Source of the DNA: Chloroflexota bacterium
Lineage (GTDB): Bacteria; Chloroflexota; Anaerolineae; UBA4142
Direction: 5' to 3'
DNA: 34,677 bases
Assembly (NCBI GenBank): GCA_023381515.1
Contig: JAMCQI010000067.1
Span: 1 to 34,677, forward strand
Made by a program: the position numbers and the translations under genes. This document shows, one piece after another, positions 9,500-27,811 of this stretch (positions are counted from its first letter, which is position 1; every line of letters begins with the position of its first letter). The notes beneath the pieces are model-generated. The model was not told where the DNA came from and searched no databases. It worked only from the letters and a program-made list of their open reading frames with translations.

Positions 9500-10432
9500 A
9501 TGGAGAAGCTAATCCTCACCACCGCGCTCACTGGCGCGATCACCGTTCCGACACAGACCCCGCACTTGAAATACAGCATCGCGGGGATTGCCGAGGATGC
9601 TATCGCCTGTGCACGCGCCGGTTCGACTTCTGTTCACATTCACGCGCGGGAACCGGAAAACGGTCGCCCCTCCTCCGATCCGGAGCTTGTGCGCGAGATC
9701 GTGACTCGCATCAAGGCAGGTTGCAACGCGATCATTTGCATCACCACCGGCGGCGGGATGGGCATGTCACCGCAGGAACGGCTGCGGGGCGCTGCATCCT
9801 GCCGGCCCGAATTGGCGACCTTCAACCTGGGTTCGATGAATTTCTCCATGCACCCGGTCGCGCGGCGCTACAAACCGGGAGAATGGAAGTTCGAATGGGA
9901 GCCTGGCTACGTCGAGGGCACCAAGGATTTCATCTTCCGCAATACCTTCGGGGACATGGAGGTGTTTGCCAAGACGATGGAGGAGAACCACGTCAAGCCG
10001 GAATTCGAGGCCTACGACGTCGGGCACCTTTACAATTTGAAATTCCTGGAGAAGGCGGGACTGGTCAAACCGCCTTACTGGATCCAATTTGTGCTAGGGG
10101 TCCTGGGTGGCCTCGGCGCCAATCCCGAAGACCTGATTCTTATGAAACAGACGGCCGACCGACTGCTCGGCCCCGACAACTATCGCTGGTCGGTGATCGG
10201 CGTGGGATATCCCAATGAGTTCAACATGACGGCGATGGGCATCATGATGGGCGGGCATGTCCGAGTTGGGCTCGAAGACAACATTTACGTCCAACGGGGC
10301 AAACTGGCGGCTAATGTGGACTTGGTGGAGAAAGCCAAGCGAATTGCCGCGGAGTTTGAGCGAGAGATTGCGACACCGAGCGAGGCGCGTCAGATACTTG
10401 GGCTAAAAGGGCTTGACGCCGTTAATTTCTGA
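9500..10432 (+). CDS. BKACE family beta-keto acid cleavage enzyme (DUF849)
   Basis: A 310-aa TIM-barrel enzyme. The BKACE family condenses a beta-keto acid with acetyl-CoA and splits it into acetoacetate and a CoA ester. The divalent metal ligands are visible: His46 and His48 in VHIHARE, and the conserved VRVGLEDN motif with Arg255, Glu259 and Asp260, matching the Arg/Glu/Asp motif of the 3-keto-5-aminohexanoate cleavage enzyme Kce as I recall it; SMNF at 112-115 is also typical. ATG 9500 follows AAGAGAGAAG. It is the first of four catabolic genes placed inside the transporter operon. With the cyclase, SDR and transhydroxylase nearby, triacetate (3,5-dioxohexanoate) is a good candidate substrate, but the side-chain specificity cannot be read from sequence. 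Confidence 0.92.
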   Translation: MEKLILTTALTGAITVPTQTPHLKYSIAGIAEDAIACARAGSTSVHIHAREPENGRPSSDPELVREIVTRIKAGCNAIICITTGGGMGMSPQERLRGAASCRPELATFNLGSMNFSMHPVARRYKPGEWKFEWEPGYVEGTKDFIFRNTFGDMEVFAKTMEENHVKPEFEAYDVGHLYNLKFLEKAGLVKPPYWIQFVLGVLGGLGANPEDLILMKQTADRLLGPDNYRWSVIGVGYPNEFNMTAMGIMMGGHVRVGLEDNIYVQRGKLAANVDLVEKAKRIAAEFEREIATPSEARQILGLKGLDAVNF

Positions 10433-10447
10433 CAGGAGGGTCAAACG

Positions 10448-11242
10448 ATGGCTTCGTCAACCAACGCACTTGAATTCTATGATTTGAGTTACCCGTGGGG
10501 TCACGGAGTTCCACTGTGGCCTTACTTCCCTGACGTCAAAATCGAGCGCATGCACTACCATGCCCGGTCGGGTGTACTCTCTCAGCAGATCACGACCTTC
10601 ATGCATTGCACGACGCATACGGACGCGCCAGCCCACGTCATCGAGGGCGCACCGTACATGGACGAGGTACCCCTCGCCAAGTTCTTCGGCACGGCGGTCG
10701 TGGTCTCCATCCCCAAGAACAAGTGGGAAAAGATCATGCCGGAAGACCTCGAACGTGCCGAGCCGCGTATCGAGCCGGGCGACATTGTGATCATCAATAC
10801 CGGCTGGCACAAGTATTGGGGCGATAACCAACAATACTTTGCCTATTCGCCGGGATTGTATCACGAGGCGGGCGAATGGTTTGTGGCGCGCGGCGTCAAA
10901 GCGGTTGGCGTGGACAACCAGGCGCTCGATCATCCACTGGCGACTGCGATCGGTCCCCACGGTTCCGGTCCCCTGCTGCCGAACGTCTGCAAGGAATTCG
11001 AGCTCGAGACCGGCCATAAGGTCGAAGAGGTCTTTTCGGAATGGGAGCCTAACCACCGGCTTTTGCTTGGCAACGGCATCGTCGGTTTCGAGAACGTCGG
11101 CGGAGACATTGACAAGGTTACCGGCAAGCGTGTGACCCTCGCGGCGTTTCCGTGGCGCTGGATGAAGGGTGATGGCTGCATCGTGCGCATGGTCGCGATG
11201 GTCGATCCAAGCGGCGAGTATCGAATCGAAAGGGGGCTCTGA
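10448..11242 (+). CDS. Metal-dependent cyclase-family hydrolase (PF04199, kynurenine-formamidase/cyclohydrolase type)
   Basis: A 264-aa protein with the family metal motif H-x3-H-x-D-x3-H: His53, His57, Asp59 and His63 in MHCTTHTDAPAHV. Members hydrolyse amides or C-C bonds of cyclic diketones (kynurenine formamidase, and dihydrophloroglucinol cyclohydrolase in anaerobic phloroglucinol breakdown). The opening ALEFYDLSYPWGHGVPLWP is also family-like. AGGAGGG lies 7 nt before ATG 10448. It follows the BKACE by 15 bp and overlaps the cupin by one base (TGATG), so the three are co-translated. Opening of a reduced aromatic ring is the role I favour from context; a formamidase-like role is the alternative. 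Confidence 0.9.
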   Translation: MASSTNALEFYDLSYPWGHGVPLWPYFPDVKIERMHYHARSGVLSQQITTFMHCTTHTDAPAHVIEGAPYMDEVPLAKFFGTAVVVSIPKNKWEKIMPEDLERAEPRIEPGDIVIINTGWHKYWGDNQQYFAYSPGLYHEAGEWFVARGVKAVGVDNQALDHPLATAIGPHGSGPLLPNVCKEFELETGHKVEEVFSEWEPNHRLLLGNGIVGFENVGGDIDKVTGKRVTLAAFPWRWMKGDGCIVRMVAMVDPSGEYRIERGL

Positions 11243-11589
11243 TGAAAGTCACGCGCGTGGAAGAAGCGGTCAAGTACTGCCCGCCCAAACATTTGGACTG
11301 CTACGCCATGTACCTGCAGCACAAGAACATGGGCTGTGAGGCGCCTTACTGGGTGGGCTGTTCCTACTATCTTCCTGGCGGCAAAGCCGATTGGGATGCT
11401 ACGCCGTTAGCCAAGATCTACATCGTGCTCGAGGGCGAATTGACCATGGCCTTCGACGGTAAAGAGGTCAAGTTAGGGCCGATGGATTCGATCTACATAG
11501 GGCCGAGCGAGAACCGGCAGGTGCGCAACGACACCAATCGTGTCGCCACGATGCTGGTCGTGATGCCCTATCCGCCCGCCGCGGCCTAG
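11242..11589 (+). CDS. Small cupin-fold protein
   Basis: A 115-aa single-domain cupin: YLPGGKADWDATPLAKIYIVLEGELTM forms the first cupin motif and GPMDSIYIGPSENRQVRND the second. The metal-binding histidines of the standard motif are largely absent, so it may be structural, a ligand binder or an isomerase rather than a metal enzyme. It shares one base with the cyclase stop and is followed closely by the SDR gene, so it belongs functionally to that group. A similar-sized cupin is encoded at 18326. Specific function unknown. Confidence 0.82.
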   Translation: MKVTRVEEAVKYCPPKHLDCYAMYLQHKNMGCEAPYWVGCSYYLPGGKADWDATPLAKIYIVLEGELTMAFDGKEVKLGPMDSIYIGPSENRQVRNDTNRVATMLVVMPYPPAAA

Positions 11590-11600
11590 GAGAAGTTCAC

Positions 11601-12383
11601 GTGAACAAGATCCCAGATACTCAATCGCTCTTCGACGTTTCCGACAAAGTGGCTCTCGTCACCGGCGCCACGGGCGGCTTGGGACAAGCGGCGGCTAAGG
11701 GACTCGCTCAGGCTCGTGCCAAGGTGATGCTGACCGGCCGTGACGAGGCAAAGCTCAAGCCGGTGCTCGCCGAGATAGAGGCTTGCGGCGGAAACGCGGC
11801 GTACGTTGCCGGCCGCCCCGACGACGTCGGCGACATGCAGCGCATCGTCGCGGCCACGGTCGAACGCTTTGGCGGCATTGACATCTTGATCACCGCCGCC
11901 GGCATGAACAAGCCCAAGCCCATCGTCGAGCAATCGGTAGAGGAATGGCAGGCGATCTTGGACGCAAATCTCAAAGCCACCTACCTGGCCTGCAAAGAGA
12001 CGGGCAAGGCAATGATCGCGCAAGGTCGCGGCGGCAAAGTGATCCTGGTTTCGTCCACGCGGGGCAAGCTGGGGATGGCCAACTACTCCGGCTATTGCCC
12101 GTCCAAAGGGGCGGTCGATTCCCTGACGCAGACTCTGGGGTGGGAGTGGGGACGATACAAGATCAACGTCAACGCGATTGCGCCGACCGTCTTCCGCACT
12201 CCGCTGACCCAGTGGATGTTCGACGACCAGTCGGTTTACAAGAATTTCTTGACGCGGATTCCGTTGGGCAGACTGGCCGAACCGGAGGACTTGATCGGCA
12301 CGCTCATTTTCCTCTCGTCACACGCGTCTGACTTTATTACAGGAGCGATCATCTACACTGACGGCGGCTACACCGCCGGCTAG
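11601..12383 (+). CDS. Short-chain dehydrogenase/reductase (phloroglucinol-reductase candidate)
   Basis: A classical SDR of 260 aa. The cofactor motif TGATGGLG is at 21-28, the catalytic Ser at 151/152 in LVSSTRGKLG, and YxxxK at Tyr165/Lys169. The usual NAAG reads TAAG (98-101). The C-terminus FITGAIIYTDGGYTAG is typical. GTG 11601 is preceded by TAGGAGAAG overlapping the cupin stop. The enzyme would reduce a carbonyl or enolised phenol with NAD(P)H; by context it could reduce phloroglucinol to dihydrophloroglucinol, as the known phloroglucinol reductases are SDRs. Many SDRs with sugar or keto-acid substrates look alike, so the substrate is inference. Confidence 0.9.
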   Translation: MNKIPDTQSLFDVSDKVALVTGATGGLGQAAAKGLAQARAKVMLTGRDEAKLKPVLAEIEACGGNAAYVAGRPDDVGDMQRIVAATVERFGGIDILITAAGMNKPKPIVEQSVEEWQAILDANLKATYLACKETGKAMIAQGRGGKVILVSSTRGKLGMANYSGYCPSKGAVDSLTQTLGWEWGRYKINVNAIAPTVFRTPLTQWMFDDQSVYKNFLTRIPLGRLAEPEDLIGTLIFLSSHASDFITGAIIYTDGGYTAG

Positions 12384-12442
12384 AGGCGACGCTCTGCGCT
12401 CGCAACACGTGCGGCGGCAATTGGACTGATCAAAGGGGCGGG

Positions 12443-13165
12443 ATGGAAGAACAAGTTTTGTTGCGAATAGACAAGATCGACGTGTTTTACGGCAGTCTTC
12501 AGGTCTTGTGGCAAGTCTCGCTTGAGGTCAAGCGTGGCGAGATGGTCGCCATCGTCGGCGCGAACGGCGCAGGCAAGACCACTTTGCTCAAGACCGTTTC
12601 GGGCGTATTCCATCCCGCCCACGGCACCATCGAGTTCGCGGGTCAACAGATCACCCACCAGAATCCCTATGACATTGTCAGCCTCGGCATCTCTCACGTG
12701 CCGGAGGGGAGAAGACTGTTTCCCGAGATGACGGTCTTTCAGAACTTACGGATCGGTTCGTACAATCACACCGCGCGGGCAAAACGGGAAGAGAATCTCA
12801 GACGAGTCTACGAGCTGTTCCCCATCCTGAAGGAACGCAAAGACCAGCTCGCCAAGACCCTAAGCGGGGGGCAGCAGCAAATGGTGGCGATTGCGAGGGG
12901 ATTGATGGCTGACCCCAAGCTGCTCATCATCGACGAGATGTCGCTCGGCCTTTCTCCTTTGATCGTAGACGAGCTGTTTCGCATCTTGCACGAGATCAAA
13001 GCGCGCGGGATCACCGTTCTCCTGGTAGAGCAGAACGTCTGGCGAACGCTGCACGAAGTGGATCGCGCGGACGTCATCGAGACTGGACGGCTTGTGTTGA
13101 GCGGCATGGCCCAGCAACTAATAGAGGAGGACAGGGTGAGGAATGCTTACTTCGGCGCGCTGTAG
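12443..13165 (+). CDS. Liv-type ABC importer ATP-binding protein (LivF-like)
   Basis: A 240-aa ATPase partnering the LivG-like protein. Walker A GANGAGKT (39-46), the family-typical HVPEGRRLFPEMTV segment, a full LSGGQ signature (140-144), Walker B LLIIDE (160-165) followed by MSLGLSP where relatives usually have PSLGL, and VEQNV in place of the canonical switch-loop sequence, as is normal for LivF. ATG 12443 follows AAAGGGGCGGG. The pair LivG/LivF therefore has one canonical signature (here) and one altered one (at 8742). It is separated from LivG by four catabolic genes and followed by both permeases. Confidence 0.93.
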   Translation: MEEQVLLRIDKIDVFYGSLQVLWQVSLEVKRGEMVAIVGANGAGKTTLLKTVSGVFHPAHGTIEFAGQQITHQNPYDIVSLGISHVPEGRRLFPEMTVFQNLRIGSYNHTARAKREENLRRVYELFPILKERKDQLAKTLSGGQQQMVAIARGLMADPKLLIIDEMSLGLSPLIVDELFRILHEIKARGITVLLVEQNVWRTLHEVDRADVIETGRLVLSGMAQQLIEEDRVRNAYFGAL

Positions 13166-13193
13166 TGACATCAATTAGGGCGGGGGCAACGAA

Positions 13194-14060
13194 ATGGAAT
13201 CGCTAAACAGCCTGATGCTGCCTATCGTCATCGGAATCTTGATGGGTGGACTGTATGCCGTCATCGCCCTGGGTCTCTCCCTCGTTTTCGGGGTGATGAA
13301 AGTGATCAACGTCGCGCATGGGGACCTGGTGATCCTCGGCAGTTACATGGGTTTTTCGGCGCTGAGCATGTGGAAGCTCGACCCGTTGCTGTGGCTGCTT
13401 CCCATCGCCCTCATCTTTTTTGTGCTCGGTTTCCTGCTGGAAAAGTACCTGTTGAACCGCGCGGCCAAGATGTCCGCGGATGCCGCTCTGATCGTCGCAT
13501 TCGGCGTTGCGCTCATCGTTCAAAACGCCGACCAGATCCTATGGACTCCGCAGAGCCGGTCTCTCGTTACGTCCTACAGCATGAGCACTTTTTCGTTGGG
13601 GGATCTGAACGTGCCTCTCGTCTACTTACTCGATTTCGCCGCCGCACTGATCGTAATGGTAGCCCTTCATCAATTCTTGCAAAGGACCTATCTCGGCCAG
13701 GCCATTACGGCTGCCTCGCAAGACCGGCAAACCGCGGAGTTGATGGGAATCGATCCCAACCGGGTCTACCACGTCGCTTTCGGCATCTCCATGTCGATAG
13801 CGGCGATTGGAGGCATCTTCTTTGGCCTGACCTTTCCTTTCAACCCAACCTCCGGCTCCGCACTCCTCATCATCGCCTTTGGCGTGATCATCTTGGGGGG
13901 GCTAGGCAGCATGGTGGGGACGTTTGTGGGCGGTATCGTTTTTGGTTTGTCACAGACTCTCGGCGGTTATTTCGCGGGTCCGACAGGACAATTGCTGATC
14001 CCGTTTTTGATGGTCCTCGTCGTCCTGAGCGTTCGTCCGCAGGGTCTATTCGGTCGTTAG
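13194..14060 (+). CDS. Liv-type ABC importer permease (LivH-like)
   Basis: A 288-aa integral membrane protein with about eight hydrophobic segments. LYAVIALGLSLVFGVMKVINVAHGD near the N-terminus is the LivH hallmark. The cytoplasmic coupling loop is ASQDRQTAELMGIDPNRVYHVAFGIS, and GVIILGGLGSMVGTFVGG plus the terminal VRPQGLFGR are equally typical. It would form the translocation path together with the LivM-like protein. ATG 13194 lies behind a G-rich ribosome binding site 28 bp after the LivF stop; the LivM gene begins 9 bp after its own stop. Confidence 0.95.
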   Translation: MESLNSLMLPIVIGILMGGLYAVIALGLSLVFGVMKVINVAHGDLVILGSYMGFSALSMWKLDPLLWLLPIALIFFVLGFLLEKYLLNRAAKMSADAALIVAFGVALIVQNADQILWTPQSRSLVTSYSMSTFSLGDLNVPLVYLLDFAAALIVMVALHQFLQRTYLGQAITAASQDRQTAELMGIDPNRVYHVAFGISMSIAAIGGIFFGLTFPFNPTSGSALLIIAFGVIILGGLGSMVGTFVGGIVFGLSQTLGGYFAGPTGQLLIPFLMVLVVLSVRPQGLFGR

Positions 14061-14069
14061 AGGGCGCCG

Positions 14070-15050
14070 ATGCGAGAATATATACCGAGGTCGCTTCCCT
14101 GGATTCCTTTCGCGGCGACGGTTGGGGTGCTTGCCATCTTGCCTTTGGTGGGCGCGCCTCAGACCTGGCTGTTGTACCTGTTCTACTTCGGCGTTTACCT
14201 GGCCGCCGCCAACATGTGGAACTTGCTCGCCGGTTTCAGTGGGCTGCTGGCGCTTTGCCCGGCAGCGTTCATTGGGCTTGCCGGCTACTCCATGACCATA
14301 CTCACCTGGGTGGGCGTCCCGTACTATGTGGGAATTCTGGCGGGGGGCGCCGTAGCGAGCTTGTTTGCGGTGGTCATTTCAGTGTCCGTCTTTAGGATGA
14401 AAGGCATCTACTTTGCGATCGGCACCCTGGTGGTGCCAGCCGTCCTGCGCCTGGTCTTTCTACGGTGGAAACCGGTCGGCGGTGACCTGACCGGCGGGGG
14501 CGCGGGCTACATGGTCAAGGGTGTGAGCGGCATTCCTCCGGCCGTAACGTACTGGCTGGCCCTCGCCGTCGGAGTGGCTTCCATGATCGTCGTGCTGGTC
14601 ATCTTGCGGTCGAAATTTGGAATGGGACTGGCCGCGATCCGCGATAATGACGTCAGTGCCGCAGCATCCGGGATTGACGTTTTCAGGCTCAAGCTGTCCT
14701 CGTTTGTAATCGCGGCATTCATCATGGGGGTCGCCGGCGCGATCTTTTACATGAATCAGGGCTATATCGAGCCGAACAACGCATTTGACATCAACTGGTT
14801 GATGATCGTTCTGCTCGCGACCGTCATCGGTGGCGAGGGTCTGGAATGGGGCCCAGTGGTGGGGACGGTCATTGTGGTGGCATTGCGGTTTCAACTCGCG
14901 AGATATGCCGACATCAGCCTCCTGATCCAAGGTCTGATCCTCGTCGTCATCATGCTCGCGGCCCCGCAGGGGATCGTCGGATTGGTCCGCCGGTTGCAGC
15001 GGGTAAGTATGGTTCATCGGATCTGGCTGCGCTGGCCAGCCCATCAATAG
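14070..15050 (+). CDS. Liv-type ABC importer permease (LivM-like)
   Basis: A 326-aa membrane protein with about nine to ten hydrophobic segments. It shows NMWNLLAGFSGLLALCPAAFIGLAGY, MKGIYFAIGTL, and the coupling loop GMGLAAIRDNDVSAAASGIDV followed by RLKLSSFVIAAFIMGVAGAI, all LivM features. The family's usual Gly-His before AAF in the early loop reads Cys-Pro. AGAGGG overlapping the LivH stop serves ATG 14070. The final 20 residues after GIVGLVRRLQ are basic and look unstructured. Confidence 0.95.
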   Translation: MREYIPRSLPWIPFAATVGVLAILPLVGAPQTWLLYLFYFGVYLAAANMWNLLAGFSGLLALCPAAFIGLAGYSMTILTWVGVPYYVGILAGGAVASLFAVVISVSVFRMKGIYFAIGTLVVPAVLRLVFLRWKPVGGDLTGGGAGYMVKGVSGIPPAVTYWLALAVGVASMIVVLVILRSKFGMGLAAIRDNDVSAAASGIDVFRLKLSSFVIAAFIMGVAGAIFYMNQGYIEPNNAFDINWLMIVLLATVIGGEGLEWGPVVGTVIVVALRFQLARYADISLLIQGLILVVIMLAAPQGIVGLVRRLQRVSMVHRIWLRWPAHQ

Positions 15051-15097: not shown

Positions 15098-15487
15098 ATG
15101 ATCGACGTGGCAATTCTGGTTCTTCGAGTTTTCATGGGCCTCGTCATGATTCCTCACGGCGCGCACAAACTCCAAGAGTTGGGTACGCTCAACAAGAAAT
15201 GGCGCGAAAAGTACGGTTTGCCAACCGGGTCCGTTGCTTTGGCCGGCTTCTTGGAGGTCGTTTGCGGATTCGCGATGATTGTGGGGGTTTTCAGCAGCGT
15301 CGCCGCCTTCATCCTTGCCGTCGTCATGCTGGTGGGAACGTACGTCAGCATTTGGAAAGACCACGAGCCGTATCTCAGTCTGCCCAGAGGCAAGGGATGG
15401 GATTTCAATGTGTTCCTGTTCGGAACACTGATCGCTCAGATCTTTTTGGGCGATGGACTTATTTCCTTGCTTCACTTGTTCTCGTAA
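15098..15487 (+). CDS. DoxX family small membrane protein
   Basis: A 129-aa protein with four hydrophobic helices. The opening ILVLRVFMGLVMIPHGAHKL, the AGFLEVVCGFAMIVGVF helix and the closing WDFNVFLFGTLIAQIFLGDG segment match the DoxX family. The biochemical role of most members is unknown; some are linked to quinone or thiol redox chemistry. ATG 15098 follows GAAGGAGG. It lies at the end of the transporter block, 47 bp after the LivM-like gene, and may be co-transcribed. Function here unknown. Confidence 0.85.
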   Translation: MIDVAILVLRVFMGLVMIPHGAHKLQELGTLNKKWREKYGLPTGSVALAGFLEVVCGFAMIVGVFSSVAAFILAVVMLVGTYVSIWKDHEPYLSLPRGKGWDFNVFLFGTLIAQIFLGDGLISLLHLFS

Positions 15488-15636: not shown

Positions 15637-15723
15637 GCGAGGTTTCAGGGCAAAAACAAGCGGAACCGAGGTCGCGCGTATCCTCGGCAGGCTCTTAACG
15701 AACCACAGAAACGGAGTATTTCA

Positions 15724-18270: not shown

Positions 18271-18325
18271 AAGACGAGGACGGGCGCCATAGAGTGGAGT
18301 GGCGCAGACAGGACCTGGAGTGTCG

Positions 18326-18658
18326 ATGCCAACTCTGTTCAATCCGCCCGAACTGGCCACGACCGGCCTGAACGGCGTGGCCCACACGCTGCTTGCGAAC
18401 CCGCCAATGGTAGGCGCGGGATCGCTGCAGGTTGACCGACTCAAGCTGAATCCCGGCACGCGGACCTCAGTAGCCGCCGCACCCAATTCCGAGTGCTTTC
18501 TCTACGTGATCCGAGGTTCAGGGTTCGCGCGAAGTGCCTCCGAGGCACTCCAGCTCGAGCCCGAATCAGCACTCTGGTTTGAGCCGGGTGACGACTACTT
18601 GCTCGAGGCAGGAGGCGACTCACTTGAAGCCCTGATCTGTCACGCCTCCTCGCCGTGA
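18326..18658 (+). CDS. Small cupin-like protein
   Basis: A 110-aa protein predicted to adopt a cupin barrel: VDRLKLNPGTRTSVAAAPNSECFLYVIRGSGFAR resembles the first cupin motif and LEPESALWFEPGDDYLLEAGGDSLEALICHASS the second. Metal-binding histidines are missing. ATG 18326 has GGAG 5 nt upstream; a GTG at 18299 would extend it by nine residues. It sits between the acyl-CoA dehydrogenase and the hydroxyacyl-CoA dehydrogenase-like gene. It may bind or sense a pathway intermediate; function unknown. Confidence 0.75.
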   Translation: MPTLFNPPELATTGLNGVAHTLLANPPMVGAGSLQVDRLKLNPGTRTSVAAAPNSECFLYVIRGSGFARSASEALQLEPESALWFEPGDDYLLEAGGDSLEALICHASSP

Positions 18659-19767: not shown

Positions 19768-22758
19768 ATGAAATCGATTGTGAGCATGATTGCAAAGTCA
19801 GAGACACTCGCGAATATGGTCTTCTCTATGCTCCTCCTTGGCTTGAAGTTGATGCTCGGGCTGACAGCGGCGCGATATCCATTCTTCAAGAATCGTCTCA
19901 AGGAAAAGAACCTCACAGCCCAAATCAAGCTCAAGGACAATTCGCGCGGCCGGTATTTCACGCTCAAGGACGGAAGGATCACTTCCAGAGGCGGTATTCA
20001 TGTCGCCCCGGACGTGACGATCAACTTCGGCAACGTCCACGTGGCGCTGGATGTGCTTGTGCCTCCTCGGGATCAATTGGCGACTATCAATGCCATGAAG
20101 AGTTTCCAGTTGGGGCTGGAAGGCCCCGACGAGTTGAGTTCCTGGTGGATGGAGACTTTGAGTATCATGCTCAACGCCGGCACCCGGTTCGGAACCGATG
20201 TGGGCAAGGGAGTCATGCGCTATACCAGTAATACGAATGGGGGGCCCGTCTTTGTCTATGTCAAAGACGGCAAGATCGTTCGGATCACTCCGATCGAGTT
20301 TGATGATCGGGACGCCAAGCCGTGGACGATTCGCGCCAGAGGAAGGGCGTTCACACCGCCGCGCAAGGCGACTGTCTCCCCCCACACCCAGGTATTAAAA
20401 TCGATGGTTTATTCGCCCGACCGGATCCTCTATCCAATGAAACGCGTCGATTTCGACCCCAACGGCGAAAGGAACTGTCAAAATCGAGGCGTCTCGGGCT
20501 ACGTCCGTATTACCTGGGACGAGGCGCTAGATGTTGTGGCGAACGAGATAAGGCGAGTGAAAAGAGAGCATGGTCCGGGAGCCATCATGAACGGAAGCGG
20601 CTCCCACCACCTCTGGGGAGTCTTGGGCTACTGGCTCGGCGTTCGACTCCGATTTTTCAACAGCATTGGCTGGACACCGGTCGTGCACAACCCCGACAGC
20701 TGGGAAGGCTGGTACTGGGGAGCGATGCATCACTGGGGACAGAGCATGCACCTCGGCGCACCAGAAAGCTATGGAACCGTAGAAGACTGCCTCAAGGAAT
20801 GCGAGATGGTTGTCTTCTGGTCGAGCGATCCAGAGGCAACCAGCGGCGTCTACGGCGCGTTTGAAGGCACCGTCCGGCGCCAGTGGCTAAAAGAGCTGGG
20901 AATCCAGATGGTACACATCGATCCTTACTACAACCATACAGCTGCCTTCTTGGGCGGCAAGTGGTTCGCCCCCAAGCCGGCGACGGACAATGCGATGGCG
21001 CTGGCGATTGCCTACGTCTGGATTAAGGAAGGGTTGTACGACAAGGACTATGTTGCCAAACGCACCGTCGGCTTCGACGAATGGAAGGCCTACATCGTGG
21101 GCGACGAAGACGGAATTCCCAAGACGCCAGAATGGCAGCAAGAGGAGACCGGCATTGCGGCCAAGGATGTGACGGCTTTGGCAAGGCAATGGGGAAGCAA
21201 GAAAACGTATCTCGCCGCCGGCGGACTGTCCGGCTTTGGAGGCGCGTGCCGGAGCGCGACTGGGAATGAATGGGCGCGTTCCATGGTCTGCCTCATGGCG
21301 ATGCAGGGTCTAGGCAAGCCGGGAGTCAATCTCGGAGGAATGCAGCAGGGAACGCCTGTGGATATGGGCTTTTATTTCCCTGGCTATTCGGAAGGCAGTC
21401 TTTCCGGAGATCTGGCCGGGACGGCCTTGGGTGTGGCACTGTTTTCGCGATTTCCCCAGCTCCCCACGGTGAACACCGTCTATCAACAGGTGCCTCGACT
21501 GAACATCCCCGAAGCCATCCTGGACGGGCACACCCACGGTTATGCCACGGATTCGAAGACGATCGAAGGTCAGTTCCGTCGATTCGAGTATCCGGCGCCG
21601 GGATATTCACCCGTCAAGATGTACTATAAATATGGGGGTTCTCACATCGGCACGATGGTTGAGACGAACCGCTACGTCAAGGCCTACCGCTCGGAAAATC
21701 TCGAATTCGTCGTCAACCAGTCGATTTGGTTTGAAGGTGAGGCCAAGTTCGCCGATGTCCTGTTGCCTGCCTGCACGAGTTTTGAGAGGTGGGATATCAG
21801 CGAGTTTGGAAATTGCGGTGGGTACATACAGCACAGCTTCAACCAGTGCAATCACCGTGTGCTCGTCATGCAGCACAAGTGCATCGAACCGCTGGGCGAG
21901 TCGAAATCGGACTATCAGATCTTTTTAGAGCTTGCCAAGCGGCTTGGATTTTCCGCAATGTTTTCCGAGGGTGCCACAGAACTCGATTGGTGCAAACGGC
22001 TGTTTGATGCCACGGACTTGGCCAAAGTGACTTCGTGGGAAGATTTCCTCACCAAGGGCTACTATGTGCTTCCCGCGCCGAAAGAGGAGATGCGAGCCCC
22101 CGTTTCCTTCAGGTCCTTTGCGGAGGACCGGCTGAAAGATACGCCGGAGATTTCGCCACTGCCGGCGGACTATGCCGAAAAAGTGTTCAAAGGGCTGCAG
22201 ACCCAATCGGGCAAACTGGAGTTTGTGTGTTCCAGCTTGAAACGGTTCGATCCCGACGACCCAGAGCGGCCGGTGATGACGAAATACATTCCCTCCTGGG
22301 AGGGTCCTCACACGACTGAGCTGTTTGACAAGTTTCCACTGCAGTTGATAACTCCGCATCCACGGTACAGCTTTCATACGATGGGAGACGGCAAGCACAG
22401 TTGGGTCAACGATCTGCCCGAACACCGGGTAAGGGTCGGCGGACACTATTACTGGGTGCTGCGGGTCAATCCTAGAGACGCTCGTGCCTACGGGGTTGAA
22501 GAGAACGATCTGGTGCAAGTGTTCAACGACCGAGGCGCCGTGATCTGCGCGGTTCGGGTGACGGAAAGAATCCGTCCCGGAACGGTGCACTCGTATGAAT
22601 CATCGGCAGTTTACGATCCCGTCGGCGAGCCGGGTTCCTCGCCGGATCGCGGCGGCTGTATGAATATTCTGACCCCCAGCCGGCCCATCATTGCCAAATC
22701 ACACAGTATCGCTGCAAATTCATGTCTCGTGCAAATCGAGAAATGGACGGAAAAATGA
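19768..22758 (+). CDS. Pyrogallol-phloroglucinol transhydroxylase-type molybdopterin enzyme, large subunit, with N-terminal SCP2-like domain
   Basis: A 996-aa member of the DMSO reductase family. From about residue 155 it follows the large subunit of pyrogallol hydroxytransferase, which moves a hydroxyl group between phenols and has no N-terminal Fe-S cluster. Residues I recall as active-site in the Pelobacter enzyme (His144, Tyr152, Asp174, Mo ligand Ser175, Trp176, Tyr404) all have counterparts here offset by exactly 136: His280, Tyr288, Asp310, Ser311, Trp312, Tyr540. The C-terminus NSCLVQIEKW is also typical. The extra first ~136 residues hold a hydrophobic stretch (17-34) and a segment resembling an SCP2 sterol-carrier fold (FTLKDGRITSRGG...PDVTINF...FQLGLEGPDEL). 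No Tat signal is seen, so it is probably cytoplasmic. The gene overlaps the small-subunit start (ATGA). Related resorcinol hydroxylases are the main alternative. Confidence 0.88.
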   Translation: MKSIVSMIAKSETLANMVFSMLLLGLKLMLGLTAARYPFFKNRLKEKNLTAQIKLKDNSRGRYFTLKDGRITSRGGIHVAPDVTINFGNVHVALDVLVPPRDQLATINAMKSFQLGLEGPDELSSWWMETLSIMLNAGTRFGTDVGKGVMRYTSNTNGGPVFVYVKDGKIVRITPIEFDDRDAKPWTIRARGRAFTPPRKATVSPHTQVLKSMVYSPDRILYPMKRVDFDPNGERNCQNRGVSGYVRITWDEALDVVANEIRRVKREHGPGAIMNGSGSHHLWGVLGYWLGVRLRFFNSIGWTPVVHNPDSWEGWYWGAMHHWGQSMHLGAPESYGTVEDCLKECEMVVFWSSDPEATSGVYGAFEGTVRRQWLKELGIQMVHIDPYYNHTAAFLGGKWFAPKPATDNAMALAIAYVWIKEGLYDKDYVAKRTVGFDEWKAYIVGDEDGIPKTPEWQQEETGIAAKDVTALARQWGSKKTYLAAGGLSGFGGACRSATGNEWARSMVCLMAMQGLGKPGVNLGGMQQGTPVDMGFYFPGYSEGSLSGDLAGTALGVALFSRFPQLPTVNTVYQQVPRLNIPEAILDGHTHGYATDSKTIEGQFRRFEYPAPGYSPVKMYYKYGGSHIGTMVETNRYVKAYRSENLEFVVNQSIWFEGEAKFADVLLPACTSFERWDISEFGNCGGYIQHSFNQCNHRVLVMQHKCIEPLGESKSDYQIFLELAKRLGFSAMFSEGATELDWCKRLFDATDLAKVTSWEDFLTKGYYVLPAPKEEMRAPVSFRSFAEDRLKDTPEISPLPADYAEKVFKGLQTQSGKLEFVCSSLKRFDPDDPERPVMTKYIPSWEGPHTTELFDKFPLQLITPHPRYSFHTMGDGKHSWVNDLPEHRVRVGGHYYWVLRVNPRDARAYGVEENDLVQVFNDRGAVICAVRVTERIRPGTVHSYESSAVYDPVGEPGSSPDRGGCMNILTPSRPIIAKSHSIAANSCLVQIEKWTEK

Positions 22759-23594
22759 GAAAATGGCACCTCGTCATCGACGTGGCCTTGTGCGAAAACT
22801 GCAACAACTGCTACTTAGCCTGCAAAGACGAGCATGTGGATAACGACTGGCCCGGGTACGCCGCGCCCCAACCGGGTCAGGGACAAGGCTGGATACGAAT
22901 CCAGGCCACAGAACGTGGGCAGTACCCCCTGATTGACGTCGCCTACCGGCCGATCCTGTGCATGCAGTGTGATGATGCGCCTTGTGTCAAAGCGGGCAAC
23001 GGAGCGGTCTACAAGAGACCCGATGGCATCGTGATCATCGACCCGGTCAAGGCAAAAGGCATGAAGAACCTTGTCAACGCCTGCCCGTATGGCGCGATTC
23101 AGTGGAACGAAGGACTGGAGCTACCGCAAAAGTGCACCCTTTGCGCCCATTTGCTCGACGATGGCTGGGGCAAAACCCGTTGCGTCCAATCCTGTCCGAC
23201 CGGCGCGCAAAGTCTGCTCTACATCGAGGATGACGAGATGCGCCAAGTCGCGGAAAAGGAGCATCTCGAGGTCTACCAGCCTGAACGCAGGACGAGCCCC
23301 CTTCTCTACTACAAAAACCTGCACCGAGTTACCCGCTGTTTCGTTGGCGGGAGCGTGGCGGTACGGGTCGACGGCAAAGAAGAGTGCGCCGAAGGCGCGC
23401 AAGTGACACTGCTAAATGCGTCCAAAACAAAGGTTGGCGAGCGCACAACTGACCCCTATGGTGATTTCAAGTTCGACGATCTAGTCGAGAATGGCGGGGC
23501 GTATTCTCTCCAACTCACATACCCGGGTCACGACGTGAAAACGATCGAGCTAGATCTAAAGGCTAGCCTCAACGTCGGCACGATCGTGCTATAA
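22755..23594 (+). CDS. Transhydroxylase-type small subunit, three [4Fe-4S] clusters plus C-terminal beta domain
   Basis: A 279-aa electron-transfer subunit. Twelve cysteines fall in ferredoxin-like groups at 13, 16, 19, 23, 69, 72, 77, 110, 127, 130, 143 and 147, enough for three [4Fe-4S] clusters. This is the number reported for the transhydroxylase small subunit; many DMSO-reductase-family beta subunits have four. The last ~80 residues (VGGSVAVRVDGKEECAEGAQVTLL onward) look like a carboxypeptidase-regulatory/Cna-B-type beta sandwich, again as in transhydroxylase. The preferred start is ATG 22755 overlapping the large-subunit stop; ATGs at 22722 and 22743 would add 11 or 4 residues. It must pair with the protein encoded at 19768. 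Confidence 0.9.
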   Translation: MRKWHLVIDVALCENCNNCYLACKDEHVDNDWPGYAAPQPGQGQGWIRIQATERGQYPLIDVAYRPILCMQCDDAPCVKAGNGAVYKRPDGIVIIDPVKAKGMKNLVNACPYGAIQWNEGLELPQKCTLCAHLLDDGWGKTRCVQSCPTGAQSLLYIEDDEMRQVAEKEHLEVYQPERRTSPLLYYKNLHRVTRCFVGGSVAVRVDGKEECAEGAQVTLLNASKTKVGERTTDPYGDFKFDDLVENGGAYSLQLTYPGHDVKTIELDLKASLNVGTIVL

Positions 23595-23600
23595 GGGAGA

Positions 23601-23649
23601 CGCGGGATCGACTTGATCGAGCTGCAATCTGCCCGCGGTATCCTTTTCT
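23601..23649 (+). terminator. Possible weak terminator after the transhydroxylase genes
   Basis: CGCGGG (23601-23606) can pair with CCCGCG (23632-23637), enclosing a 25-nt segment with a further GATC repeat, and TATCCTTTTC follows. The long loop makes this weak. It lies directly after the small-subunit stop, in the 143-bp gap before the next molybdopterin enzyme gene. Confidence 0.3.
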
Positions 23650-23737
23650 CATTGAAGGCGCGTTTGTTCGCGGGGAACCGTGCAAAAGGCGCCCCGTGTG
23701 GTCGCGTAAACGCGCAAGCGGCATTAGAGGCTGTTAT

Positions 23738-25891
23738 ATGAAAGGAAATAGCGTGAATCAGTTATCGGCGAATGAGAGGAGATATCTAGCCGCGTGTCCG
23801 GCCATGGGCCTCTGCACGGCGACCTGCCCACTGGAGGTGACGGTTCAAGACGGTCGAATCACGCACATCTCTGACCACCCGGCTTACCCCGCCTGCGTCA
23901 AGGGTCATGTCCAACACATGACGGTGAACGATCCCACACGGCTAAAGTACCCAATGGTACGGGTGGGCAAGCGAGGGGAAGCAAAGTTCGAGCGCATCAG
24001 TTGGGACGCGGCAATTGACTTGTATGCGGGAAAGATCAAGGAGATCGGCGACGAATACGGCCTCGAAGCGATACTGTTCTATGCAGCACGCGGCACCGGC
24101 GGCTTGGCGCGTCTTGCGGCGAAGGAGCGCTTCCCGAACGTCCTCGGTGGGCTGGTCACGTGCTGGGGCTCATTGTGTATCGCGAACAAGACAGCCGCAG
24201 CCCAAACCATGTTCGGGACACCGGCATCCGAAAGTGACCTGGATACGATCAAGGACTCTCGCCTTGCGATCTTTTGGGGCTATGGCTTCGCCGACAGCAA
24301 TCGCCGAGGCGATTTCGCAGGCGAAGCAATGGAGATCATCGCGGAGGCGAAGCGTCGGGGCACGCGCATCGTCGTCATCGATCCGTTCTTTTCGCGTACG
24401 GCGGCCGTCGCGGACCAATGGATTCCGATCATGCCCGGGACGGACGGCGCGATGGCACTGGCCATGGCGAACGTCATCATGGACCGCGGTCTGGTCGACC
24501 ACGAGTTCGTTTCCAAATTCGTTCAGGGTTTTGACGAATTTAAGCGCCACGCGCAGCCCTATACGCCGGCGTGGGCTGCCGAAATCACCGGCGTGCCGGC
24601 TGAGACGATCGTCACGCTCGCGACCGACTACGCGACCCAGCAACCGGCGGCGCTCTTTCCAGGGGACGGACCTTCCCGGGCAGGACGTGACCCGTCGCAA
24701 TGGGTGCGCGCGTGCGGCGCGCTCGCCGCGCTGGTGGGAAGCATCGGCAAACCGGGGACGAACGCGACGTCGGGCACAGCGTACAACAAGGGAATTATTG
24801 CCGGCAGTTTGGTTGCGGCGGACAAACGGAAGACCACCGTCAAGGTGAACGAGTGCCAGATCGCAGATGCCATCCTGACTGGCAGGGCGCTGCAACCCGA
24901 TGGCAGAACCGTTGCCGACACGCCGATCCGAATGTTGATCGGGCATGGCTCAAGCGTGGTCAACCAGGCCGGCGACTCGAACAAGATCGTACAAGCGCTC
25001 CAAAAGCTCGACTATATCATTGCGGCGGATCACTTTGTAACTCCCTTCGTCCGCCACGCGGACCTCGTCTTGCCCGCGACGACGGTGTTTGAAGGGAACG
25101 ATGCCGGGTTCTACGCAACAGCCGGCCACGCGATCGTTTACAGCGAGCAGGTGATTGAGCCAATGTACGAATGCCGTTCCGACCTCGACATCTGGGCAGC
25201 GGTTGCGGACAAGTTGGGCCTGGGCGACGAATACGGTTCGAACTGGAAAGATGTCGACTGGATGCGCGAGACCCTTTACGTTTCTACCGCCGCGAACCCA
25301 CGACTGGCCGACGTGACGCTCGAACGCCTGCAGAAAGAGCGCATCATCTTCGTCGGGCCTCGGCCATTCATTCCGTTCCAAGATCAGGTGAAAGGGCTCA
25401 AGCCATTCCCAACCCAGTCTGGCAAGATCGAACTCTATTCCAAAGAACTGGAAAAACAGGGGTTGCCGCCAATGCCGACCTACTTGGATGACTTTGAGAA
25501 CCTGCGCCACCCTCTTGCCCAAAAGTACCCGCTAGCGATCGCGACGCCACACCTGATTGGGTGGCTGCACAGCCGGACGAACAATCCTTTGCTCAAGGAA
25601 CAGTTTCCGGTCGAGGTGTTCATCCATCCGGCGGATGCGGCCAAGCGCGGGATCGAAGAGGGGGATGCGGTAGTGGTGTTTAACGATCGCGGAGCCACGC
25701 GGCGGACGGCTCGGGTAACCGAAGGCATACGCCAGGGCGTCCTCGTGCTGCCGCAGGGTCCGTGGTACGATCCGGGCCCCGATGGCGTCGATCGCGGTGG
25801 CTCGGTCAACGTCCTGACGACGGACACGATCGACCGCATTGGCGGTTCGGGGACGTACAACAACGCGCTCGTCGAGGTCAAAAAGGCATGA
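23738..25891 (+). CDS. Second molybdopterin oxidoreductase (DMSO reductase family) of unknown substrate
   Basis: A 717-aa catalytic subunit of the DMSO reductase family. The N-terminus has four cysteines that could bind a [4Fe-4S] cluster: Cys20, 26, 30 and 53, with a 5-residue first gap instead of the usual 2-3. Molybdopterin-domain features follow: MVRVGKRGEAKFERISWDAAID, LVTCWGSLCIANKTAA, IVVIDPFFSRTAAVADQWIPIMPGTDGAMALA, and the C-terminal dinucleotide-binding domain ending GGSVNVLTTDTIDRIGGSGTYNNALVEV. No Tat signal peptide, so probably cytoplasmic. No small subunit gene adjoins it. ATG 23738 has AGAGG 7 nt upstream; GTG 23753 (behind AAAGGA) is an alternative. It could be a second hydroxylase, hydratase or reductase; I do not recognise the substrate class. 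Confidence 0.88.
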   Translation: MKGNSVNQLSANERRYLAACPAMGLCTATCPLEVTVQDGRITHISDHPAYPACVKGHVQHMTVNDPTRLKYPMVRVGKRGEAKFERISWDAAIDLYAGKIKEIGDEYGLEAILFYAARGTGGLARLAAKERFPNVLGGLVTCWGSLCIANKTAAAQTMFGTPASESDLDTIKDSRLAIFWGYGFADSNRRGDFAGEAMEIIAEAKRRGTRIVVIDPFFSRTAAVADQWIPIMPGTDGAMALAMANVIMDRGLVDHEFVSKFVQGFDEFKRHAQPYTPAWAAEITGVPAETIVTLATDYATQQPAALFPGDGPSRAGRDPSQWVRACGALAALVGSIGKPGTNATSGTAYNKGIIAGSLVAADKRKTTVKVNECQIADAILTGRALQPDGRTVADTPIRMLIGHGSSVVNQAGDSNKIVQALQKLDYIIAADHFVTPFVRHADLVLPATTVFEGNDAGFYATAGHAIVYSEQVIEPMYECRSDLDIWAAVADKLGLGDEYGSNWKDVDWMRETLYVSTAANPRLADVTLERLQKERIIFVGPRPFIPFQDQVKGLKPFPTQSGKIELYSKELEKQGLPPMPTYLDDFENLRHPLAQKYPLAIATPHLIGWLHSRTNNPLLKEQFPVEVFIHPADAAKRGIEEGDAVVVFNDRGATRRTARVTEGIRQGVLVLPQGPWYDPGPDGVDRGGSVNVLTTDTIDRIGGSGTYNNALVEVKKA

Positions 25892-26014
25892 TTGGCCGAC
25901 ATAACGTTGGCCAACAAATCCATCCAGACTCGACGATCGCGCGCTTGGCTCGTTCTTGAAAGGGACCGGACTGGCGGCCTCCGTCGCCAGAAAAAGATCG
26001 TTGAGGTGAATGAC

Positions 26015-27031
26015 GTGGAAATCCTCGCCGAAGGGCATGGCGAATTGGTGGGCTGGCACGACCCCGACGAAAATCGCGCGTGGATCCAAGCGAACAAGTC
26101 GCGTGAGCTAAGCGACAAACGCATGGACGTGAAGCAAGCGGTTGCGGCGTTTGTCCGTGACGGCGACTATATTGCGTTTGGCGGCTTTGGTCATGTCCGA
26201 GTTCCCATGTCGCTCGTTTACGAACTCATCCGTCAACGCAGAAGGAACCTCGTCATGGCCGGCAAGACCGCCGTGCACGATATTGATCTTCTCATCGGCG
26301 CCGGCTGCGTGGACAGAGTCGAAGCGGCCTACGCGTTCGGGCACGAATTGCGAGGGCTCTCACCGGCCGGTCGCCGCGCGGTCGAGTCGGGGCAGTGCAA
26401 GGTTGTGGCAGAGATATCCAACGCCGGATACCAATGGCGGTTTCTGGCAGGGATGATGGGGATACCCTTCATCCCCGCGCGCACCATGCTCGGCAGCGAA
26501 ACGCTGGACCGCAGTGCCTGCAAAGTCATCCAAGATCCCTGGAGCGGAAAACCGGTCTGCCTGATACCCGCCGCTTATCCCGACGTGGCGATGTTTCATG
26601 CGCCGCGCTGTGACATGTACGGCAATGTACAGATCGACGGCATCGCGGTAGAGGACTTTGAACTGGCTCGTGCCGCGCGCCGCGTGATCGTCACGGTTGA
26701 GGAAATCGTCGATACCGAAGTGATCCAGTCCGCTCCCTGGCGGACGATGATCCCGTTCTACGTCGTGGATGCCGTGTGTGAGGTTCCGTACGGCGCCCAC
26801 CCGACGCAAATGCCCTACCTCTACTTTTTTGACGAAGAGAACATCGGCGAGTGGCTCGAAATGGCAAAGACGGAAGAAGGCGCCGCGGCATATCTTGAAA
26901 AGTACGTCTTCGGCGTCAATGATTTTGAAGAATACTTGGAACGAGTCGGCGGCGTCAGGAAGCTTAATTATCTGAAACGGGTGATGCAGTTCAAGGAGCC
27001 GATGAAAGCTCCCTGGCTAGGAACAAAGTGA
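26015..27031 (+). CDS. CoA-transferase family protein, subunit A (GctA/IpdA-like)
   Basis: A 338-aa class I CoA transferase alpha chain. DGDYIAFGGFGHVRVPMSLVYELI is the N-terminal CoA-transferase motif, followed by LVMAGKTAVHDIDLLIGAGCVDRVEAAY and FHAPRCDMYGNVQIDG. It resembles glutaconate CoA-transferase subunit A and the IpdA subunit of the actinobacterial steroid-ring hydrolase. The frame opens at TTG 25892, but GTG 26015, 6 nt after GAGGTG, gives a more family-like start just before GELVGWHDPDENRAW. With subunit B it would move CoA between acids or hydrolyse a C-C bond of a cyclic CoA ester. In this pathway it could activate acetoacetate; that is inference. Confidence 0.88.
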   Translation: MEILAEGHGELVGWHDPDENRAWIQANKSRELSDKRMDVKQAVAAFVRDGDYIAFGGFGHVRVPMSLVYELIRQRRRNLVMAGKTAVHDIDLLIGAGCVDRVEAAYAFGHELRGLSPAGRRAVESGQCKVVAEISNAGYQWRFLAGMMGIPFIPARTMLGSETLDRSACKVIQDPWSGKPVCLIPAAYPDVAMFHAPRCDMYGNVQIDGIAVEDFELARAARRVIVTVEEIVDTEVIQSAPWRTMIPFYVVDAVCEVPYGAHPTQMPYLYFFDEENIGEWLEMAKTEEGAAAYLEKYVFGVNDFEEYLERVGGVRKLNYLKRVMQFKEPMKAPWLGTK

Positions 27032-27043
27032 GGCGGCACCGTC

Positions 27044-27811
27044 ATGGCTGAGCGATACTCTCCTACTGAATTGTTGGCTTGCGTGGCAGCTCGACTTTTG
27101 GAAGACAAAAAGTCTGTCATGGTCGGCACGGGCCTTCCAATGATCGCTGGGTTGCTGGCGCAAAGGACCCATGCGCCAAACCTACTTCTAATCTTTGAGG
27201 CAGGGGGCATTCGACCACAGTCGCCGGTGCTGCCCATCTCCGTCGGCGATAGCCGCACCTTTCACCGAGCGATAGCGGCGTCGAGCATGCACGACGTAAT
27301 GAGCGCATGCCAGGCTGGCTACGTGGATTACGGCTTCCTCGGCGCGGCGATGATCGACGCTTACGGCAACCTCAACACAACGGTGATCGGCGATTGGGAA
27401 CACCCGAAAGTACGACTTCCCGGCAGCGGCGGCGGAAACGATATCGGCTCGCTTTGCCATCGCACGATCGTCATCATGCGACAGGACAAGCGCAAGTTTG
27501 TGTCGCACGTTGATTTCCTTACTACCCCCGGTTATCTTGATGGAGATGGGGCAAGAGAGCGCGTGGGGTTACCCACACGCACAGGTCCATACCGCGTCAT
27601 CACCCAGTTGGGACAATACGGTTTTGACGAGAAAACGAAACGAATGACACTCCTTGCCGTTCATCCAGGCATTGCGCTGGACGACGTACGTTCCAACAGT
27701 TCTTTCGAAATCGTCGTTCCCGGACAGGTCGGTGTTACCCAGGCGCCAACCGATGAAGAGCTCCGTCTGCTTCGGGAGATTGATCCAACTCGAGTTGCGA
27801 TTGGCAAATGA
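27044..27811 (+). CDS. CoA-transferase family protein, subunit B (GctB/IpdB-like)
   Basis: A 255-aa beta chain partnering the gene just upstream (12-bp gap). It shows MVGTGLPMIAGLLAQRTHAPNLLLIFEAGGIRP, in which Glu52 sits where CoA transferases carry the Glu that forms the CoA thioester. It also has GYVDYGFLGAAMIDAYGNLNTTVIGDW, LPGSGGGNDIGSLCHRTIVIM and FVSHVDFLTTPGYLDG. These features are shared by GctB and IpdB, so transferase and C-C hydrolase activities cannot be separated by eye. It is the last gene of the catabolic block; after its stop at 27811 the coding pattern breaks down. Confidence 0.88.
   Translation: MAERYSPTELLACVAARLLEDKKSVMVGTGLPMIAGLLAQRTHAPNLLLIFEAGGIRPQSPVLPISVGDSRTFHRAIAASSMHDVMSACQAGYVDYGFLGAAMIDAYGNLNTTVIGDWEHPKVRLPGSGGGNDIGSLCHRTIVIMRQDKRKFVSHVDFLTTPGYLDGDGARERVGLPTRTGPYRVITQLGQYGFDEKTKRMTLLAVHPGIALDDVRSNSSFEIVVPGQVGVTQAPTDEELRLLREIDPTRVAIGK

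Follow-up and report, generated by a model that had tools for sequence, protein, structure and literature searches.

A candidate operon for the uptake and oxygen-free breakdown of hydroxylated benzenes in an uncultured Chloroflexota bacterium

A stretch of 34,677 nucleotides from an uncultured Chloroflexota bacterium (assembly GCA_023381515.1, contig JAMCQI010000067.1; hereafter the window) carries a molybdenum transhydroxylase, a Liv-type ABC importer and a set of enzymes of the families expected in phloroglucinol degradation, which raises the question of whether these genes form a single catabolic route and which phenol would enter it. The window very probably encodes an uptake and oxygen-free breakdown line for small plant phenols, and there is good reason to regard the locus as an operon by which an uncultured anaerobe catabolises hydroxylated benzenes, and in which the importer and the transhydroxylase are joined to a phloroglucinol-to-acetoacetate core. 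The activities, the transhydroxylase substrate and the importer cargo are predicted here from protein families, conserved residues and synteny. In the proposed route (genes identified by their starts), the importer (7202-9467 and 12443-15050) would take up the phenol, and the transhydroxylase, composed of a large (AthL) and a small (AthS) subunit (19768-23594), would move ring hydroxyls to yield phloroglucinol. A short-chain dehydrogenase/reductase (SDR; 11601) would convert phloroglucinol to dihydrophloroglucinol, and a cyclase-family hydrolase (10448) would open the ring to 3-hydroxy-5-oxohexanoate. This would be converted to triacetate by a dehydrogenase (18787), a BKACE protein (9500) would convert triacetate and acetyl-CoA to acetoacetate and acetoacetyl-CoA, and a CoA transferase (26015/27044) would probably activate the acetoacetate.

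Gene order and the phloroglucinol-to-acetoacetate core

Pfam matches in the open reading frames (ORFs) of the window confirmed that the families named in an earlier note on this DNA all lie on the forward strand at the starts given there, and chance can be excluded for these. The run from 7202 to 27811 comprises, on the forward strand, the Liv importer parts, the core enzymes, a DoxX gene, an M24 gene and the later enzymes. The Liv-type importer named in the note is present on the same strand and is complete, with a binding protein, two ATPases and two permeases interleaved with enzyme genes, while its first two genes (7202 and 8742) precede the range from 9500 that the note had assigned to the cluster. 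The nearest database matches share 91 % (transhydroxylase) and 85 % (cyclase) identity with the window proteins, and the nearest named ones are from metagenome-assembled genomes (MAGs) of Chloroflexi, Dehalococcoidia, Syntrophorhabdales and Anaerolineales, which makes a Chloroflexota host likely.

The steps from phloroglucinol to acetoacetate and acetoacetyl-CoA that the note had proposed are borne out by individual residues, by synteny conserved across genomes and by the best matches among solved structures. Among all PDB sequences, the SDR matches best to 5g4k/5g4l (257.6 bits, with 169.1 bits for the next other protein), which we take to be the solved phloroglucinol reductase (PGR). The two share 49 % identity, and the 5g4k sequence is 100 % identical to that of a Flavonifractor plautii locus. 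This best structural match supports the SDR as a candidate PGR, and its placement in an SDR tree with a distant outgroup received support of 83/82. Zhou et al. 2023 (PMC10470551), in the accessible text, cite a PGR structure solved for Clostridium sp. ATCC BAA-442. The same text describes Trp20 and Tyr22 of the dihydrophloroglucinol cyclohydrolase (DPGC) CsDPGC as replacing isatin-hydrolase residues, and these map to W24 and Y26 of the window cyclase, within a WPYF motif found in all 17 aligned rows. In a phylum search, this motif occurred in 8/8 relatives of at least 62 % identity and in 0/5 paralogues of 44-50 % identity. The metal-site motif H-x3-H-x-DAP-x-H (HCTTHTDAPAH in the window) is kept in 16/17 rows, with Asn in place of Asp in Rhizorhabdus. 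Residues and synteny support the cyclase as a candidate DPGC. Paralogous cyclases without WPYF were observed in three loci (L141, L142 and L143), one of them near its own SDR, dehydrogenase and Leu14 BKACE genes (L142), which suggests that a sister pathway opens the ring of a different substrate.

In an alignment with 4kug, the dehydrogenase lacks the CoA-binding residues of clostridial hydroxybutyryl-CoA dehydrogenase (HBD), having Leu56 for Lys56 and Arg225 for Asn221, while the catalytic His is kept; Lys56 and Asn221 are likewise described as lost in CsTfD in the accessible text of PMC10470551. None of the starred sets in the HCDH tree contains the window protein. The BKACE protein falls in a long clade with BKACE15 of Paracoccus denitrificans (8rio; 49 % identity; support 100/99), branching outside the group formed by BKACE15 and the proteobacterial BKACEs. 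The confirmed substrates of BKACE15 include 3,5-dioxohexanoate, and its physiological role is called unknown in the part of PMC11961710 that was accessible. Two BKACE lineages thus appear at one step, short proteins of ~280 aa and long ones of ~310 aa. The short triacetate acetoacetate-lyases (TALs) from 11 clostridial, Bacteroidales and deltaproteobacterial clusters have Trp at the position of Kce Glu14, while the long BKACEs of the window and of proteobacterial clusters have Ile in 7/7 rows; a short Mycobacterium row, long-branched in the tree, also has Ile by eye.

The core genes recur together in other taxa (counts for related operons here and below refer to the stretches fetched). Among the best 80 of 93 loci from a PGR scan of genome contigs, the cyclase, SDR, dehydrogenase and BKACE genes occur together, often with a small cupin gene beside PGR, and the termite deltaproteobacterial contigs L075, L078 and L079 also encode AthS and an AthL with an N-terminal extension (61-62 % identity). 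Eight records in PLSDB were listed with a cyclase of at least 40 % identity, of which six were examined (H5 and H7 being left out). Plasmids of Rhizorhabdus, Novosphingobium, Pacificitalea and Aminobacter show the order cyclase-cupin-SDR-dehydrogenase-BKACE with some insertions, and Liv genes are interspersed in the Pacificitalea and Aminobacter clusters. Within 395 genomes from the phylum to which a termite deltaproteobacterium (G001) belongs, a window-like cyclase was found in nine (eight at at least 62 % identity, plus G297, in whose locus L166 the gene is split in two frames), an extended AthL in seven, and both in five (Fisher 3.3e-8, with kinship not controlled and assemblies incomplete). 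Genome G365 has an extended AthL with no cyclase match listed, and in G264, G181 and G081 the two genes are on different contigs.

The operon of L133 reads LivG-F-H-M-SBP-cyclase-cupin-BKACE-SDR-dehydrogenase-AthL-AthS, plus a second AthLS, and nearly all of this recurs in L166/L167, where the other AthLS comes first. The loci L133/L145 (G353) and L166/L167 (G297), from genomes of the G001 phylum, share with the window the importer, DPGC, cupin, long BKACE, PGR, dehydrogenase and extended AthL; they differ in carrying the second AthLS, the window showing one AthL copy, and in having no close match in the stretches fetched to the M24, acyl-CoA dehydrogenase, second molybdenum enzyme and CoA transferase of the window. 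The coupling of the core to a Liv-type importer, as proposed in the note, recurs in five of the nine genomes with a window-like cyclase (L133, L135, L136/L147, L139 and L166) and in two of the six PLSDB loci, and homologues of the binding protein sit with the core in these five and in L088. The idea that the importer is unique to the window was rejected, since Liv genes also accompany the core in plasmid loci and related operons. An acetoacetate--CoA ligase is encoded beside the core in L136 (871 bits) and L169 (810 bits; cut-off 520.9), which gives independent support for the formation of acetoacetate. These were two of four proteins of ~650 aa tested, that of L133 being a sigma-54 regulator and that of L137 giving no match. 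In the window, the CoA transferase would take the place of this ligase.

Of the cupins reported in the note, the first (11242; CUP1) was confirmed by a PF07883 match, while the second (18299-18658) is weak, with no Pfam match at 1e-3. In 65 loci (from L001-L080 and L086-L094, with PGR of at least 40 % identity and >1.5 kb of sequence on each side), a cupin is present in 48 and lies <=1.5 kb from PGR in 47, on the same strand in 44 of those 47. It also accompanies PGR in seven of the nine genomes with a window-like cyclase, not being seen in the stretches fetched for L135 and L140. The fold of CUP1 is TM1459-like with the metal ligands replaced. There is no HxH in 17/17 rows, and Lys58 and Arg92 each occur in 19/20 rows, in the register of the TM1459 metal ligands H52, H54, H58 and H92. 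The literature searched, which left most subscription journals outside its reach, yielded no function for CUP1. Judging by its conservation, this apparently metal-free cupin belongs to the pathway core, and it may be guessed that its Lys/Arg pocket handles an enolate intermediate.

Several observations weigh against the assignment of this route. The cyclase is just 36-40 % identical to clostridial DPGCs, and the cyclase tree has two 100/100 groups (6 and 12 rows) in which the window protein is not with the clostridial enzymes and instead groups with Mycobacterium and alphaproteobacteria; to our knowledge, no member of its own group has been assayed. The BKACE has Ile14 in place of Trp16 of CsTAL, and on NF053538, the 3,5-dioxohexanoate model and its best NCBIfam model, it scores 392.7 bits, under the cut-off of 430, while the BKACEs of four proteobacterial clusters score 504-537 bits. 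Taken together, the BKACE15 clade and this best model make 3,5-dioxohexanoate a likely substrate for a protein that lies outside the curated family. The SDR reads TGRD against the TR(S/N) NADPH motif given in the accessible text of PMC10470551; the F. plautii enzyme reads TGRN, so that the Arg is common to both and the following residue differs. Furthermore, the CoA transferase is glutaconate-like rather than CtfAB-like, and no thiolase domain was detected among the window ORFs scanned. Within AthL, seven of the nine residues of what we take to be the Pelobacter active-site set are kept, with Trp for Arg at position 153 and Phe for Trp at position 354; there are ~148 extra N-terminal residues relative to Pelobacter, and extended relatives occur in aerobes without PGR nearby.

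A different assignment, in which the genes serve a beta-keto-acid route of the carnitine or another type that has nothing to do with phenols and the transhydroxylase is a chance neighbour, would accommodate the score of the BKACE under the NF053538 cut-off and the presence of acyl-CoA dehydrogenase and M24 genes. It is nevertheless highly improbable, given that cyclase, cupin, SDR, dehydrogenase and BKACE co-occur in several phyla, that the core stands with the same transhydroxylase in other genomes, and that the L-carnitine dehydrogenase model gives 125.5 bits against a cut-off of 414. The earlier note had itself pointed to carnitine and kynurenine clades as places where the BKACE and cyclase might fall; the BKACE groups with a 3,5-dioxohexanoate enzyme, and the arylformamidase model scores the cyclase at 49 bits against a cut-off of 223. 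Both the carnitine reading and the kynurenine reading of the cyclase were rejected on these model scores and on synteny.

The transhydroxylase subtype and its substrate

Both transhydroxylase subunits match the Pelobacter acidigallici enzyme over their full length (4v4c_A, 1075 bits; 4v4c_B, 257 bits), with 55 % identity and with the Ser ligand of molybdenum kept. The ORF of the small subunit opens at 22722, and a start at 22755 fits the Pelobacter small subunit. The window copy differs from Pelobacter in three respects, namely the residues at positions 153 and 354, the N-terminal extension, and its position across the main split of the AthL tree. In an alignment of 23 rows, Arg153/Trp354 without a long extension is confined to Pelobacter and two copies from Eubacterium oxidoreducens, while Trp153/Phe354 occurs in 18 rows including the window, and Tyr153/Phe354 in Ensifer and Burkholderia. 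All 20 rows outside the Pelobacter/Eubacterium set have 131-162 extra N-terminal residues, and the tree parts the same three rows from these 20 with an SH-aLRT of 100 (a quick tree, with no bootstraps). As 13 of the rows were picked from the 120 nearest database matches, the spread of the subtype is over-represented in these counts. There are exceptions, L143 encoding a Lys153/Phe354 form without the extension and Salipiger one without Asp174.

The extension itself gave no Pfam match in the window copy. One of seven members matched SCP2 at an E-value of 0.027, a weak lead, and an AlphaFold model built from four rows was unusable (pLDDT 38.5). Among the extended relatives, three aerobic proteobacterial plasmids (L090, L091 and L092) carry AthLS near fumarylacetoacetate hydrolase (FAH) and VOC genes, two of them also near an acyl-CoA synthetase gene, and an aerobic use of a transhydroxylase-like enzyme is probable in these. 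On account of the residue changes, the extension, the exceptions and the aerobic relatives, the substrate of the transhydroxylase cannot be read from its sequence alone. Its linkage to PGR makes phloroglucinol the likely product, and pyrogallol is the presumed substrate.

It is conceivable, though somewhat less probable than otherwise, that the core makes triacetate from phloroglucinol while the transhydroxylase acts on hydroxyhydroquinone or resorcinol rather than on pyrogallol, as a second subtype of transhydroxylase or hydroxylase. Such a role would agree with the tree split and with the Trp/Phe replacements. It would also agree with the gene content of related operons, as L133 (and likewise L145) holds both AthL subtypes, and L166/L167 hold one extended and one non-extended copy, as if two hydroxyl transfers were needed. 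Similarly, according to the accessible text of Hug 2013, two Chloroflexi have two transhydroxylase complexes or operons each. However, His144, Tyr152, Asp174, Ser175, Trp176, Tyr404 and Tyr560 are all kept in the window AthL, the window has one AthL copy, and the choice of 13 rows from the nearest matches inflates the apparent spread of the subtype. Homologues of the pyrogallol transhydroxylase were already described for Chloroflexi in 2013 and 2016, in RBG-2 and RBG-1351 (PMC3971608) and in DEH-C11 (PMC4959651), as far as these sources were accessible; their accessible portions contain no description of a linked phloroglucinol operon with an importer.

Accessory genes and the extent of the operon

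The features of the run are collected in Table 1.

Table 1. Predicted genes of the forward-strand run, in order of position
Feature	Coordinates	Strand	Supporting match
Liv-type periplasmic binding protein	7202..8626	+	PF13458, 138 bits
Liv importer ATPase, LivG-like (score under cut-off)	8742..9467	+	PF00005, BCA_ABC_TP_C
BKACE, candidate triacetate (3,5-dioxohexanoate):acetyl-CoA lyase, long Ile14 subtype	9500..10432	+	PF05853, 1e-99
Candidate dihydrophloroglucinol cyclohydrolase (DPGC), Cyclase	10448..11242	+	PF04199, 8.4e-37
Small cupin CUP1, conserved in phloroglucinol clusters	11242..11589	+	PF07883
Candidate phloroglucinol reductase (PGR), SDR	11601..12383	+	SDR, 1.4e-53
Liv importer ATPase, LivF-like	12443..13165	+	
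Liv importer permease, LivH-like	13194..14060	+	PF02653, 115.6 bits
Liv importer permease, LivM-like	14070..15050	+	PF02653, 85.1 bits
Small DoxX-family membrane protein, between importer and M24	15098..15487	+	PF07681, 53.8 bits (cut-off 23.6)
M24 creatinase/prolidase-like protein	15718..16947	+	PF00557
Acyl-CoA dehydrogenase-like protein	17044..18270	+	PF00441/PF02770
Second small cupin-like ORF, weak	18299..18658	+	Pirin_C, 0.0017
Candidate (S)-3-hydroxy-5-oxohexanoate (triacetate-forming) dehydrogenase	18787..19716	+	3HCDH, 2.9e-61
Transhydroxylase large subunit (AthL), N-terminal extension, Trp153/Phe354	19768..22758	+	AhtL-like PF21423 and molybdopterin domains, ~3e-30
Transhydroxylase small 4Fe-4S subunit (AthS)	22755..23594	+	Fer4 and C-terminal CarboxypepD_reg-like domain
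Second molybdopterin enzyme, DMSO-reductase family, Cys at the Mo-ligand column	23738..25891	+	PF00384/PF01568, 1.1e-43
CoA-transferase subunit A, glutaconate type; candidate acetoacetate activator	26015..27031	+	1poi_A, 147 bits
CoA-transferase subunit B	27044..27811	+	PF01144, 90.9 bits

Related operons, in the stretches fetched, contain no close orthologue of the M24 protein, acyl-CoA dehydrogenase, second molybdenum enzyme, second cupin or CoA transferase, and the pathway roles that the earlier note had offered for the first four of these find no backing there. Its further suggestion that the range extends to gallate or flavonoid-derived acids is likewise not upheld, as the 30 ORFs scanned include none with a domain of gallate decarboxylase, tannase or phloretin hydrolase. 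The M24 start is probably near 15718, as homologues align from residue 4-6 and the preceding stretch has no Pfam match. M24 homologues in related loci share just 27 % identity (L089, downstream of the Aminobacter cluster, and L168). The acyl-CoA dehydrogenase has plasmid homologues of 60-62 % identity in Ensifer and Shinella alone, the next being at 34 %, and homologues in related loci are 26-33 % identical (L006, L068 and L093). On the Shinella plasmid pShin-01 (L099), the 60 % identical homologue was observed in a related cluster, along with Liv genes, a BKACE, a cupin, a dioxygenase and ETF genes.

The second molybdenum enzyme probably starts at 23738, since this gives a protein of 717 aa, the length of its homologues P0246 and P0247. 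Its clade is discrete, the identity dropping from 64 % to 40 % with nothing between among the 120 matches listed. The column of the molybdenum ligand holds Cys in 27/27 close homologues and in 1/12 distant rows, AthL having Ser, and the clade is further characterised by N-terminal cysteines in a CPxxxLCTATCP-like motif. Precomputed annotation gives 7/27 homologues a twin-arginine signal domain, which is not shown by the window copy. Molybdenum enzymes in related loci are 29-30 % identical (L139 and L143). For CoA-transferase subunit A, the start at 26015 is indicated by haloarchaeal homologues that align from its residue 1; these are its closest plasmid relatives (53-55 % identity) and lie near a sodium:proline symporter gene.

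It was further considered whether the run consists of two transcription units, one with the importer and core (7202-15050, perhaps including DoxX) and the other from M24 to the CoA transferase (15718-27811), with M24 and the acyl-CoA dehydrogenase serving another route. Between the importer and M24 lie the DoxX gene (15098-15487), which is absent from the gene account of the earlier note, and another ~230 bases, and neither M24 nor the acyl-CoA dehydrogenase has a close orthologue in related operons. A Tritonibacter M24 homologue (L102) moreover adjoins E1/E2 genes like those at 3656-6961 of the window, so that the window M24 may belong to the E1/E2 module. However, the core needs the dehydrogenase and the transhydroxylase, both of which directly adjoin it in L133 and L166/L167; the Aminobacter cluster has a 27 % identical M24 homologue on its downstream side; and the stretch 15050-15718 is not gene-free, as it holds DoxX. 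Promoter-like sites (6, against 5.3 in shuffles) and terminator-like sites (18, against 13.2, sd 3.3) are close to the shuffle level, which makes the scan uninformative, and the nearest site (15431) is inside the DoxX ORF. A division into two units is considered unlikely.

Upstream, at 563-6961, the same strand carries a malic enzyme-like gene, a GntR/FCD regulator and a 3-hydroxyisobutyrate dehydrogenase-like gene, as well as E1alpha-E1beta-E2 genes of a 2-oxoacid dehydrogenase. A second ABC transporter of the sugar type (SBP_bac_1, two permeases and two ATPases) follows the cluster at 28699-34582. An Rfam search at gathering thresholds and a tRNA scan of the window gave 0 matches.

Relation to known systems and significance

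The Clostridium scatologenes cluster (PGR-DPGC-TfD-TAL), as described in the accessible text of PMC10470551, covers the same four enzyme steps as the window, with the DPGC substrate residues and the TfD residue losses in common. It differs in its TAL, which has Trp16 and ~280 aa, while the window BKACE is of the other lineage, with Ile14 and ~310 aa, and unlike the C. scatologenes enzyme the window cyclase is in the short DPGC group. In addition, the accessible text names a 'major family transporter' where the window has a Liv ABC importer, the transhydroxylase is inside the window operon, unlike in the C. scatologenes cluster, and a cupin is not mentioned in its main text. The chemistry of the window is already known, being a published phloroglucinol pathway joined to a published transhydroxylase, and the parts worth specialist attention are the cupin, the BKACE of the long lineage and the subtype of transhydroxylase.

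These parts allow a wider proposal, possible rather than probable, that a second form of anaerobic trihydroxybenzene catabolism exists in several phyla. It would comprise a Trp153/Phe354 transhydroxylase with an N-terminal domain, acting on some phenol in place of pyrogallol or in addition to it, and a long Ile14 BKACE whose cleavage of triacetate is independent of the enzyme known from clostridia. The Lys/Arg cupin, free of metal, would be a component so far overlooked, which might for example tautomerise or carry the enolate of phloroglucinol or dihydrophloroglucinol. Under this proposal, the Cys-ligated molybdenum enzyme might make the 1,2,3,5-tetrahydroxybenzene co-substrate.

On the more probable reading of the locus as a catabolic operon for hydroxylated benzenes, the window hints at what long BKACEs such as BKACE15 may do in the cell, presents the conserved cupin as a candidate missing piece of the phloroglucinol pathway, and singles out a transhydroxylase subtype distinct from that of Pelobacter. 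Phloroglucinol-degradation genes were expressed by 57 MAGs from 13 phyla in catechin-amended microcosms, according to the accessible part of the source. The breakdown of polyphenols without oxygen bears on the storage of carbon in sediments and peat, and the window presents a compact operon, with counterparts in other genomes, that would unite the uptake of the phenol with the rearrangement and opening of its ring and the final cleavage to acetoacetate.

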